Source of the DNA: Candidatus Caccousia avicola
GTDB taxonomy: Bacteria; Bacillota; Clostridia; Oscillospirales; Acutalibacteraceae
Length of the DNA stretch: 33,251 nt
NCBI GenBank assembly: GCA_018712435.1
Contig: DVGZ01000047.1
Span: 1 to 33,251 of the forward strand
Direction of reading: 5' to 3'
A program made the translations under genes and the position numbers. The notes under the pieces were generated by a model. That model was not told the DNA's origin. It saw nothing but the letters and a program-made list of their open reading frames with translations, and searched no databases. Numbering within the stretch: position 1 is the stretch's first letter; the number at the start of each line of letters is the position of its first letter. Positions 1 through 23,661 of this stretch are shown here, piece by piece.

Positions 1-216
1 GCCGGCCGTGACGGGGGAGAGGGGGCGGCAAACCAACGTAGAAAACAAAGCGTGGGGTTCGAAGGGGCAAAGCCCCTCGCGAATCTTTGCCTACTTTCTT
101 TTCGCAAAGAAAGTAGGGGCCCGTCGCGGCCTGAGCGACTCATGTACTGGCTGACGCCAGCACATAGTCTGAAGCATAATTTTGCGGTTCTCACAAACCG
201 GAAAATTACGCTTCAG
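1..216 (+). repeat. Structured intergenic repeat, copy A
   Basis: This non-coding stretch matches, in reverse complement, the block at 23239-23453. Shared segments include GCCGGCCGTGACGGGGGA at the outer end, GCGTGGGGTTCGAAGGGG in the middle and GGCCTGAGCGACT. Four hairpins can be drawn: 63-77 (AGGGGC/GCCCCT), 90-117 (CCTACTTTCTTT/AAAGAAAGTAGG), 147-160 (CTGGC/GCCAG) and 169-216 (a long imperfect stem starting CTGAAGC). Copy B keeps the same four stems with different paired bases. The repeat begins at or before the window edge. A short open frame (52-300) is an accident of the repeat. Function unknown. Confidence 0.8.
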
Positions 217-3683: not shown

Positions 3684-3725
3684 AACAAAAAAGCCCGCCC
3701 CAAGCCGTCTCGCTTAGGGCGGGCT
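3684..3725 (-). terminator. T-box-controlled terminator before ilvB
   Basis: Minus-strand stem AGCCCGCCCTAAGCG / GCTTGGGGCGGGCT followed by TTTTTTGTTTG. Its 5' arm follows immediately after the T-box sequence (3734-3746), the arrangement expected for a mutually exclusive terminator/antiterminator pair. Confidence 0.9.
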
Positions 3726-3958
3726 GAACAGTCCGCGGTACCACCTAATTTCGGGAATCCTCCCGCACTCTGCCGGCGGGCAATCGCCTGCCGCCGCCCG
3801 GTAACGGAGGGGAACCGCCGGAGCCTACTGAGACAAGCTGTTCGGTCCGGAGCTCGGGGGCCACGTTCGGCGGGCGTTTCACGAAGCTTTTCACCGGCCA
3901 GCTTCTCTCTTGGCTTTCGCGCACGCTTACTTTTCCCTGTCAAAGCCTTTGTCTGATT
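3692..3958 (-). promoter_or_regulatory. T-box leader of the ilvBNC operon
   Basis: The minus strand holds the T-box core AGGTGGTACCGCGG (3733-3746) that pairs with the acceptor end of uncharged tRNA, followed by the terminator. Upstream are stem I hallmarks: GGGAAAAGTA (loop-E side), the AGAGAGA bulge, and the GGTGAAA distal loop enclosed by GAAGCT/AGCTTC, then CTCAGTAGG of the linker. The specifier is not certain. By analogy with the hisS leader here, GAA-C-GTG gives GTG (Val) at 3862-3864, while a CTC (Leu) lies in GAGCTC at 3850-3855. Expected effect: readthrough into ilvB when the cognate tRNA is uncharged. Confidence 0.92.
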
Positions 3959-4603: not shown

Positions 4604-4630
4604 GAATAGGAACCTCCCCCTTAGAATTTT

Positions 4631-4659
4631 ATTTTACCACACTCACATTTTCCAGTAAA
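4631..4659 (-). promoter_or_regulatory. Promoter of tetR
   Basis: TTTACT (4654-4659) and TAAAAT (4631-4636) separated by 17 nt on the minus strand, 28 nt before the tetR start codon. The palindrome at 4677-4730 lies directly upstream of the -35 box. Confidence 0.7.
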
Positions 4660-4676
4660 TTTCTTTTCCCGAATTT

Positions 4677-4730
4677 CATGCACATAGGCCGTCCGTGTCA
4701 CAATTCTGACAGGGACGGCCTGTGTGCATG
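4677..4730. promoter_or_regulatory. 54-bp near-perfect palindrome, candidate TetR operator
   Basis: Two 24-nt arms (4677-4700 and 4707-4730) are inverted copies that agree at 22 of 24 positions, around the spacer CAATTC. The centre reads TGTCA-CAATTC-TGACA and the outer part GGCCGTCC/GGGACGGCC, CATGCAC/GTGCATG. It sits between divergent tetR and the MMPL operon. A plausible plus-strand -35 (CTGACA at 4706-4711) lies inside it, with only a poor -10 (TGTTGT) at 17 nt. The likely role is binding of the TetR protein; it is longer than a usual single TetR site and may hold two overlapping ones. Confidence 0.65.
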
Positions 4731-4811
4731 TTGTGCTTCGGCATCACGGGGCGTATGCTGAAGCTGTAATCCCGCGATAAGCGCGGACTTTTTCGGAAGG
4801 AAGGATCCACC

Positions 4812-5135
4812 ATGAAGGAGCTGTACGAGCTGATTCTGCACAGCCAGCTTGGCCCCCGCCCGGGGCTTCTCTCGCTTCTGCGCCATGGCCCGGACGTTTC
4901 GGGAACGCTCTCCCTCGCAGGCTATGAAAACAGCGTCAACGGACAGTGGGACGGCGTGCGCACGTTTACCCTGCTGCACCCCCTGCGCACCGCCGTGGGA
5001 ACCCACCAGTGCCGCAGCGTGCTGACCCTCGCCGGGGAAACGATCACCGGCACCGCCGAGCTGGAAGAATGCACCATGCATTGGAGCGGGCGCAGGCTGC
5101 CCGCAAACGAACCAAAGGAGGGAGACTGTGAGTAA
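4812..5135 (+). CDS. Small beta-rich protein of the MMPL operon, function unknown
   Basis: A 107-residue protein with AAGGAAGGA upstream of its ATG. It has no signal peptide or membrane segment, and is predicted from alternation of residues to be mostly beta strands (SGTLSLAGYENSVNG, RSVLTLAGETITGTAEL). It contains a GTL...NGQW pattern repeated by a second GTAELEE half, suggesting a small barrel. I do not recognise a named family. It is the first gene of the operon and overlaps the GTG start of the MMPL gene by 8 nt, so translation is probably coupled and its role is probably tied to the exporter, perhaps as a cytoplasmic accessory or sensor. Confidence 0.8.
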   Translation: MKELYELILHSQLGPRPGLLSLLRHGPDVSGTLSLAGYENSVNGQWDGVRTFTLLHPLRTAVGTHQCRSVLTLAGETITGTAELEECTMHWSGRRLPANEPKEGDCE

Positions 5136-21830: not shown

Positions 21831-22844
21831 ATGTTTTCCAAGGATATCGGCATTGATCTGGGCACCGCGAACACTCTGGTGTTTATGAAAGGTAAGGGCA
21901 TTGTGATGCGCGAACCGTCCGTTGTGGCGGTGGACGTGCGCAGCGACACGGTGCTGGCCGTCGGCACGGCGGCAAAGGAAATGATCGGACGCACTCCCGG
22001 TTCCATTGTGGCGGTTCGCCCGCTCAAGGACGGCGTTATTGCGGACTTCGACATCACGGCCACGATGCTCAAGCATTTTATCCGCAAGGTTGTGCGCTCC
22101 ACGATGTTCTCCAAGCCGCATATTGTCGTTTGCATCCCCTCCGGCGTCACAGAGGTGGAGCGGCGCGCGGTGGAGGACGCGGCGCGTCAGGCCGGAGCGT
22201 CCCAGGTGGAGCTGATCGAGGAGCCGATGTCGGCGGCGATCGGCGCGGGACTGCCCGTCGCGGAGCCGACCGGCAGCATGGTGGTGGATATCGGCGGCGG
22301 CACGGCCGAGGTAGCGGTGATCTCGCTGGGCGACATCGTGACCTCCTGCTCCGTCCGCGTGGCCGGTGACAAGTTTGACGAATCCATTATTTCCTATGTC
22401 AAGAAGAAATACAACCTCCTGATCGGTGAGCGCACGGCCGAGCAGATCAAGATTGCGATCGGCTCCGCGTACCCGACGGAGGACAACAACGGCACGAGCG
22501 TGGAGATCAAGGGCCGCAACCTGGTGGACGGTCTGCCGAAAAACGTGACCATCACGGCGGAGGAAGTGCGTGAAGCGCTCTCCGATCCGCTCTCGACGAT
22601 TGTGGACGCAATCAAGAGCACGCTGGAAAAGACTCCTCCGGAGCTTTCCGCCGATATCATTGACCACGGCATTATGCTCACGGGCGGCGGCGCGCTGCTG
22701 CGCGGCCTGGATCAGCTTGTCGAGCGCGAGACCGGCATGCCGGTTCATGTAGCCGAAAGCCCGCTTGACTGCGTGGTGGACGGCACCGGCAAGCGTCTTG
22801 AAGTCAACATGCCCAACGCATATTACAAGAACAACAGACGCTAA
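21831..22844 (+). CDS. mreB: Rod shape-determining protein MreB
   Basis: MreB is the bacterial actin that organises lateral wall synthesis at the inner membrane face. The 337-residue protein shows the actin-fold phosphate motifs: [19 protein letters not shown] at the N-terminus, [18 protein letters not shown] near residues 150-167, and [14 protein letters not shown]-type ATP motif ([13 protein letters not shown] near 280). The start at 21831 (MFSKDIGID) has GAAAGGGG upstream; longer frames begin in the promoter. Unusually, mreC does not follow directly: 913 bp of hairpins and repeats lie between. Confidence 0.97.
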
Positions 22845-22845
22845 G

Positions 22846-23115
22846 GCAGGCTGAGCCTGCACGCAGCGGCCCGCGCGGCAGATGCGTGCAAAATGGAAAG
22901 CCCGGCGGCGCGGGACGGTCTGGACATGCTCCCGGCGTCCCGGAAGCACGGCGCAGCCGCATGAAAGTTTTCGTCCACCTTTTTCAAAAGGTGGTGGGGT
23001 TTTAGGGGTGAAACCCCTAAACTGTAACCTTTTCCTTCCCAAAATGCAGGAGGGGAAGGAAAAACAGTCCGGGGGACTGTTTTTCCGTAGGGGGACCCAC
23101 ATGAGGGGTCCCCCT
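22846..23115. repeat. Array of about eight hairpins after mreB
   Basis: Consecutive inverted repeats: 22846-22860 (GCAGGCT/AGCCTGC), 22858-22890 (TGCACGCA/TGCGTGCA), 22911-22942 (CGGGACG/CGTCCCG) and 22975-22994 (CCACCTTTT/AAAAGGTGG). Further on are 23001-23021 (TTTAGGGGT/ACCCCTAAA), 23030-23063 (TTTTCCTTCCC/GGGAAGGAAAA), 23060-23084 (AAAAACAGTCC/GGACTGTTTTT) and 23089-23115 (AGGGGGACCC/GGGTCCCCCT). Several are perfect, with loops of 1-8 nt. No coding frame is credible. The 23060-23084 stem has A and T runs and could terminate transcription in either direction. Together it may be a composite intergenic repeat or a structured RNA. Confidence 0.75.
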
Positions 23116-23238
23116 GTGTGCTGGCGCAAGCCGGGACACAACTTGACATCGTGCTCACCAGCCACACACAGCGTCCGGTTTACACCTAGCGGCTGAACTT
23201 TGATTTTCTCTTTGTCGCTTCTTTGCCGCACTTAGCTG

Positions 23239-23453
23239 CTGAACTTTGATTTTCCGGTTCGCAAGAACCGCAAAATTGAAGTTCAGTCTGCGAACCGCCG
23301 CAGGCGGGGCGCAAGTCGCTCAGGCCGCGGCGGCCCCCCATTTCTTGCCGCCAAGAAATGGGGGAAAGAACCGCGAGGGGCTTTGCCCCTTCGAACCCCA
23401 CGCTTTCTTTTCTACGTCAGACTTGCGCCCCCCTTTCCCCCGTCACGGCCGGC
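23239..23453 (-). repeat. Structured intergenic repeat, copy B (inverted relative to 1-216)
   Basis: Reading the minus strand from 23453, this block follows copy A segment by segment. Hairpins: 23376-23390 (AGGGGC/GCCCCT), 23335-23364 (CCCCCATTTCTTG/CAAGAAATGGGGG), 23295-23307 (CCGCC/GGCGG) and 23239-23286 (a 22-bp imperfect stem with a GCAA loop). Bases in the stems differ from copy A while pairing is kept; the linkers GCGTGGGGTTCGAAGGGG and GGCCTGAGCGACT are the same. This suggests selection on structure. Confidence 0.8.
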
Positions 23454-23494
23454 CAAATTTGCGCTGACGCGCAAGACTGGCCGGCTGGTGGGGG
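23437..23494. repeat. Long nested inverted repeat
   Basis: CCCCC (23437-23441) with GGGGG (23490-23494), GGCCGGCC with TGGCCGGC, and an inner TTGCGC-TGAC-GCGCAA stem make a nested, bulged hairpin. It starts at the outer end of copy B; in copy A the corresponding part would lie before base 1 of the window. Confidence 0.55.
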
Positions 23495-23529
23495 AAAACC
23501 TCAAAATTAGCGTGGGGAATAATTTTGAT

Positions 23530-23559
23530 GTTTTCCGTGCGTTGGGGTTACGGCTCTAC
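23530..23559 (+). repeat. Direct repeat unit 1 (partner at 23662-23690)
   Basis: GTTTTCCGTGCGTTGGGG followed by ACGGCTCTAC occurs here and again at 23662-23690, differing only by one or two bases in the junction. The two units flank the hairpin at 23580-23633. Confidence 0.8.
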
Positions 23560-23579
23560 AAAGGATTGCAGATAACACC

Positions 23580-23633
23580 TAGCTGCTGAACTTTGATTTT
23601 CCGGTTCGCAAGAACCGCAAAATTGAAGTTCAG
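23580..23633 (+). repeat. 54-bp exact direct repeat containing the GCAA-loop hairpin (copy C)
   Basis: The 54 bp are identical to 23233-23286. Within it, 23586-23633 folds into the same 22-bp imperfect stem closed by a GCAA loop (GGTTC-GCAA-GAACC). A further hairpin follows at 23637-23659 (GCGAAGCACC/GGTGCTTTGC). A shortened relative starting CTAGCGGCTGAACTTTGA is at about 23186. It lies about 125 bp before mreC. Confidence 0.85.
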
Positions 23634-23661
23634 ACCGCGAAGCACCGTAGGTGCTTTGCGC

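Follow-up and report, generated by a model that had tools for sequence, protein, structure and literature searches.

The window, that is, the whole stretch of 33,251 nucleotides of DNA analysed here, carries two copies of a structured repeat in opposite orientations, one (copy A) adjoining ilvC at its 3′ end and the other (copy B) between mreB and mreC, antisense to the mreB-mreC operon. Both copies, together with the stems quoted for them, were found in the sequence as described in the initial annotation, and their predicted folds are far more stable than those of shuffled sequence (z −6.9 for copy A and z −4.8 for copy B). Because the window starts at the first base of its contig (contig C14 of the genome designated G000), copy A is truncated; complete copies found elsewhere start ~100 nt further upstream, where a motif ending in ACGCACGG is followed by two additional hairpins, H1 and H2 (GCCGGCC..GGCCGGC). 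The arms of H1 are wholly different between species, with their pairing kept. Downstream of these hairpins, an 85-nt unit occupies positions 54-139 in copy A and 23315-23399 in copy B. All four hairpins previously reported as common to both copies are real; the third and fourth (147-216 in copy A), however, form a separate repeat module (Table 1).

Copy B and the modules around it put ~750 bp (22844-23593) between mreB and mreC, which are normally near neighbours within one operon. More mosaic hairpin modules, among them GGGGGACCCCTCATGTGGGTCCCCC and AAAAACAGTCCCCCGGACTGTTTTT, lie at 22985-23235; they recur elsewhere in the genome, and several congeneric species contain parts of them. On the minus strand, the window also contains a T-box leader (RF00230) at 3712-3952.

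Table 1. Positions of the repeat features within the window
Feature	Position	Strand	Basis or remark
Copy A, H2 3′ arm (GCCGGCC)	1..7	+	Remaining H2 and H1 beyond contig edge; compared with complete copies
Copy A, hairpin H3 AGGGGC-AAA-GCCCCT	63..77	+	6 of 6 pairs vary on both sides, 95 units
Copy A, pseudoknot strand a (GCGAA)	79..83	+	Partner 101-105
Copy A, pyrimidine strand L1 (TCTTTG)	84..89	+	Predicted triplex third strand with purine arm 107-117; swap test
Copy A, stem S2/H4 5′ arm (CCTACTTTCTT)	90..100	+	Stem covariation
Copy A, loop strand a′ (TTCGC)	101..105	+	Partner 79-83
Copy A, S2 3′ purine arm (AAGAAAGTAGG)	107..117	+	Stem covariation and L1 matching
Copy A, hairpin H5 GTCGC-GGCCTGA-GCGAC	123..139	+	Stem variable, 5 of 5 pairs vary on both sides; loop conserved within order
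Copy A, separate 3′ module: CTGGC/GCCAG and CTGAAGC..GCTTCAG hairpins	147..216	+	Also alone or in tandem elsewhere in genome
Copy B, hairpin H1 (GGAAAACATCAAAATTA / TAATTTTGAGGTTTTCC)	23493..23536	-	Comparison with complete copies
Copy B, hairpin H2 (GCCGGCC..GGCCGGC, inner stem TTGCGC/GCGCAA)	23448..23485	-	Comparison with complete copies
Copy B, hairpin H3	23376..23390	-	Covariance model and stem covariation
Copy B, L1 (TTCTTTC), S2 5′ arm, loop GCGG and S2 purine arm CAAGAAATGGGG	23336..23370	-	
Copy B, hairpin H5, loop GGCCTGA, one C-A mismatch in stem	23315..23331	-	
Copy B, 3′ module	23229..23304	-	Direct repeat; further copy at 23576-23651, other side of core

The possibility that the two copies are the only ones in the genome did not hold, as many more were found both in the genome and in its relatives: G000 contains at least 11 cores, and the family is also present in four other species of the genus. 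Units occur mostly singly or as inverted pairs, and separate palindromic modules form a mosaic around the cores. One of these, the 3′ module with its CTGGC/GCCAG and CTGAAGC hairpins, is found alone and as a 131-bp tandem array next to a core copy (L069; G000:C131:17539-17905), the tandem unit consisting of the 3′ module, CCGTAACCCCAACCCACGG and a CTGGC/GCCAG hairpin.

Comparison of G000 with the genome of a second species, G002, revealed seven G000 sites common to both and two G002 copies that are missing at the syntenic G000 sites. At one empty G000 site the DNA passes from the adjacent repeat directly into the flank, which indicates that the element is gained and lost, and the compared site showed no evident target duplication. 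The two species carry different types of stem 2 at the ilvC site that they share, next to a right flank that is 97.8% identical, so stems are exchanged as blocks within the genus. The paired changes between copies A and B, which had been read as compensatory, are genuine stem differences, but stem 2 did not change point by point, and since stems move as blocks, the comparison of A and B alone does not prove compensatory change.

R1, a covariance model built on the element's 3′ half, detected the 85-nt unit in 32 of the 394 genomes searched within the order, corresponding to 25 of 169 genera, and a further model (R2), searched across a sample of the phylum, matched in 7 of 267 genera. Among 95 distinct units, 93.4% of the cells are paired and both partners vary in 22 of the 23 stem pairs, with one inner-stem pair (T-A) invariant and the adjacent pairs almost fixed. 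Double-changed cells numbered 506, as compared to 143 after shuffling, and the covariation score of 0.604 fell to 0.05-0.14 when partners were slid by 1-3 columns. This signal, far above both the shuffle and the slide controls, establishes at the sequence level that compensatory evolution of the stems is real, and it bears out the earlier proposal of selection for RNA or DNA structure.

Stem 2 as first described is only half of the predicted fold, as its loop can also pair with an upstream segment, and the strands then follow one another as a, L1, b, a′, b′, as they do in an H-type pseudoknot. Using a threshold of at least 4 bp, a:a′ matches were found in 55 of the 95 units of the order, against 21 (maximum 31) after loops had been swapped between units, a control that removes shared ancestry in part. 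Similar results were obtained for 83 units from several phyla, which had been picked by the L1/stem pattern alone, without selection for a:a′ pairing: 56 of them matched, compared with 29 after swapping (maximum 41 in 1000 swaps), and 35 different complementary a:a′ pairs were represented. Strand a mostly ends 0-2 nt before a conserved TTCTTTG.

The pyrimidine strand L1, in turn, is a parallel match to the stem's purine arm (TTCTTT/AAGAAA, TCTTTT/AGAAAA, TTTTT/AAAAA and TTTCTT/AAAGAA). Full matches were observed in 54 of 90 distinct combinations, against 21 (maximum 32 in 2000 swaps) when L1 was swapped, which likewise removes shared ancestry in part; the scan was also run without a composition filter. 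Major-groove triple helices follow this pattern of parallel matching, with U•A-U and C+•G-C triples. The near-fixed inner stem would be accounted for by the surrounding a:a′ pairing and L1 matching, and a stem of ~12 bp would suit such a fold, offering ~6-7 triplex pairs and leaving the linker ~5 free pairs over which to cross the groove. Copy B represents the predominant stem type in the window's genus; in it, the triplex register is retained and the pseudoknot pairing is weak (3 bp and a wobble). In some copies the H1 loop CCCCACGC can pair with GCGTGGGG ahead of H3, but this pairing was discarded, the variation there being without covariation. Taken together, the swap tests demonstrate covariation of both the pseudoknot and the triplex, and, judged by its sequences, the unit combines a crossing a:a′ pairing with a pyrimidine strand parallel to a purine arm, as in the class of triple-helix H-type pseudoknots; we infer that the fold does form.

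The triplex pseudoknot, as well as the spread across phyla described below, goes beyond the initial annotation. The exact pattern TTCTTTGCCTACTTTCTT-N4-12-AAGAAAGTAGG was found in at least 119 stretches, although some of these are plain hairpins without the pseudoknot. Its hosts are Paraburkholderia, Caballeronia, Cupriavidus, Variovorax, Haemophilus, Rodentibacter, Avibacterium, Desulfuromonadales, Bacteroidetes, Lentisphaerae, Gemmiger and Oscillospiraceae. The core itself recurs in Burkholderiaceae, Pasteurellaceae, Desulfuromonadales, Bacteroidetes and Lentisphaerae, with 29 bases identical in several phyla. Paraburkholderia chromids hold at least 30 copies of their own version, the best matches having no annotated feature beneath them, and in Rodentibacter the element lies in the purH-purD gap. 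The window's copy had no match among phage and plasmid records, other copies had none among phage records, and E. coli gave none. In viral contigs, exact H5 words were mostly chance matches by covariance score, and exact core patterns matched a few contigs. Comparison of the copies establishes, at the sequence level, the repeat, its dispersal and its distribution. In the Lentisphaerae genome SIG97 (L325, ~4613-5009), core hairpins also form a tandem array with a period of ~90 bp and without pseudoknot pairing.

In Haemophilus, the unit is part of an imperfect palindrome of ~505 bp that recurs several times per genome, its ends being similar from site to site (for example L340:2056-2562, with ends TCAGGATTTCGCC..GGCGAAATCCTGA); Rodentibacter carries copies of the palindrome as well. 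Each arm of the Haemophilus palindrome contains one outward-facing pseudoknot unit. As read from the sequence, L1 of the left arm (TTTCTTTTT) matches AAAGAAAAA and L1 of the right arm (TTTTCTTT) matches AAAAGAAA, so that within a single element the triplex rule is kept in both arms by sequences that differ. Among the fetched loci, unit pairs less than 700 bp apart were divergent in 14 cases and convergent in 4 (9 versus 1 under a stricter rule). The element is thus a gene-free inverted repeat in several copies, a feature of MITEs. No ORF common to the palindromes and no transposase-bearing version was present in the fetched loci, a small sample, and no target-site duplication was obvious at the Haemophilus element ends.

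Two ORFs were noted between units. At L187 (G376:C65, ~857-1096), a Cys-rich ORF of 61 amino acids (CKSCKHFRLHY..GHCVYPRCKKR..CPACANW) lies between palindrome arms; it had no Pfam or NCBIfam match and was rejected as a mobiliser, as no second palindrome with such an ORF was found. In a member of the Rhodocyclaceae (L268, 4704-6457), a divergent unit pair 1.75 kb apart encloses an ORF of 372 amino acids, the first 80 residues of which matched no Pfam family.

RAYT and IS200 transposases were considered as mobilisers and rejected, being unlinked to the units: G000 encodes one full Y1_Tnp protein, of the IS200 type, and its flanks are without a unit. In Bacteroidetes bacterium LEAD1 (L304, 1044-1671, minus strand), a RAYT-like tyrosine transposase is accompanied by its own palindrome (GTCGAAGCTAGA), which is unrelated to the unit 6 kb away. 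When the units were inspected for a REP tag, GTAG was present in some stem types only (GAAAGTAGG), others having ATGGGG, GGAAC or GTCACC there. Across the window and 15 other loci, Rfam 15 gave no match over the element at the gathering threshold, and elsewhere only sub-threshold, chance-like matches. A search of the literature outside subscription journals, by sequence words and by topic, found no published description of the element. The additional copies, the covariation, the species-variable sites and the lack of an Rfam match support the earlier suggestion, which was a mobile element of the REP/MITE kind or else an RNA family not yet described.

Overall, these results suggest, with a probability of about 60%, a non-autonomous, dispersed and probably mobile element that is spread across bacterial phyla and carries a conserved RNA triplex pseudoknot. 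Mobility is likely because of the presence/absence differences, the sharp ends and the spread over phyla; the fold would be one of RNA, and the element would move in trans. In the model that we propose, strand a would pair with the loop a′ of the ~12-bp stem, giving an H-type pseudoknot as the invariant part of the element, and L1 would lie in the stem's major groove and run parallel to the purine arm, making U•A-U and C+•G-C triples. The complete element would be a gene-free imperfect palindrome of 0.5-0.7 kb with an outward-facing pseudoknot in each arm, best seen in Haemophilus and Paraburkholderia, H1 and H2 taking the place of one arm in the window's genus. The pseudoknot strand is most likely transcribed, with selection acting to keep the RNA knot; as a committed guess, the knot may be recognised by the element's copying machinery or may protect the RNA. 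A more far-reaching and still tentative version holds that this is an undescribed cross-phylum mobile element whose movement or survival depends on an RNA triple-helix pseudoknot at each arm, and hence a selfish element whose defining feature would be its RNA tertiary fold, and neither a transposase nor its primary sequence.

The structure might instead act at the level of DNA, as a REP/BIME-like mosaic of extruded or single-stranded hairpins serving as transposase substrate or protein-binding site, with the arms kept by DNA constraint or by arm copying. The intergenic placement without an orientation rule, the palindromic modules surrounding the cores and the exchange of stem blocks between copies would all suit such a mosaic, and the triplex rule (T•A-T and C+•G-C) is possible in DNA too. 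Wobble pairs are also very few (G•T ~1% in absolute terms), as would fit DNA-level structure too, yet with symmetric scoring the stem mismatches on the pseudoknot strand comprised nine G•T, eight of them in the outer five pairs, and no A•C, which favours RNA of this strand; in the model-fitted alignment the split was weaker (24 G•T versus 16 A•C). This asymmetry moderately favours RNA over DNA. Arm copying, moreover, cannot account for the match of strand a to the loop or for that of L1 to the purine arm, and neither a RAYT nor another transposase is linked to the units, so we consider the DNA reading rather doubtful.

Less probable still, the unit could be a cis-acting RNA element of host mRNAs, for example a knot at the 3′ end that stabilises them by blocking exonucleases; occasional recombination would then have spread it without its being selfish, and the palindrome would let it work from either side. 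Triplex pseudoknots are known as stable RNA folds, any transcript crossing the palindrome would meet one sense knot, and the sites in the purH-purD gap of Rodentibacter and the mreB/mreC gap of the window would suit this role. By eye, no T run of an intrinsic terminator follows H4/H5 on either strand in copy A or in the other examples inspected. Against a host function, single copies lie in both orientations relative to genes, no clear orientation rule emerging from ORF calls that are noisy in this GC-rich DNA, and copies are present or absent between close species. Finally, ordinary hairpin repeats with covariation produced by gene conversion among paralogous copies in one genus are very improbable, because the same rules are followed by many different sequences from numerous genera and from several phyla, even though stem types were swapped as blocks at the ilvC site.

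The identical 29-base core in Firmicutes, Proteobacteria, Bacteroidetes and Lentisphaerae has to be accounted for, either by one cross-phylum mobile system or by a widely conserved factor that recognises the fold. The triplex rule gives testable single-base predictions and a route to annotating many unnamed intergenic repeats, and RNA-level selection on bacterial MITE-like repeats becomes testable.

H-type pseudoknots with a triple helix also occur in SAM-II and telomerase RNA, and pseudoknot repeats adjoin a ToxN-family nuclease gene in type III toxin-antitoxin RNA (ToxI-like). With the RAYT-mobilised REP, BIME and REPIN elements (PMC2817692, PMC3116915), the unit shares a dispersed, intergenic, palindromic and multi-copy nature, often with inverted pairs and module mosaics. 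A conserved GTAG or CGTC tag stands beside the palindrome of REPs (PMC3733652), whereas the unit described here is a predicted pseudoknot with a matched pyrimidine third strand rather than a tagged simple hairpin, spans several phyla with an identical core, and has no linked RAYT in the window's genome, where the sole full Y1 transposase is of the IS200 type; of the REPIN hallmarks examined, both the linked RAYT and the constant tag are therefore missing. Like MITEs (PMC10969869), the element is short, gene-free, inverted-repeat, multi-copy and polymorphic between species, but it differs from them in its structured ends and conserved single-strand fold, and neither a parent transposon nor a target-site duplication was found for it. 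The SAM-V (PMC6061858) and guanidine-III (PMC5696562) riboswitches resemble the unit in its predicted H-type topology and triple-helix logic; in contrast to them, the unit has no Rfam match, would stack about six or more triples in an unbroken run within a ~12-bp stem, and resides in a dispersed repeat rather than in the leader of one gene class.
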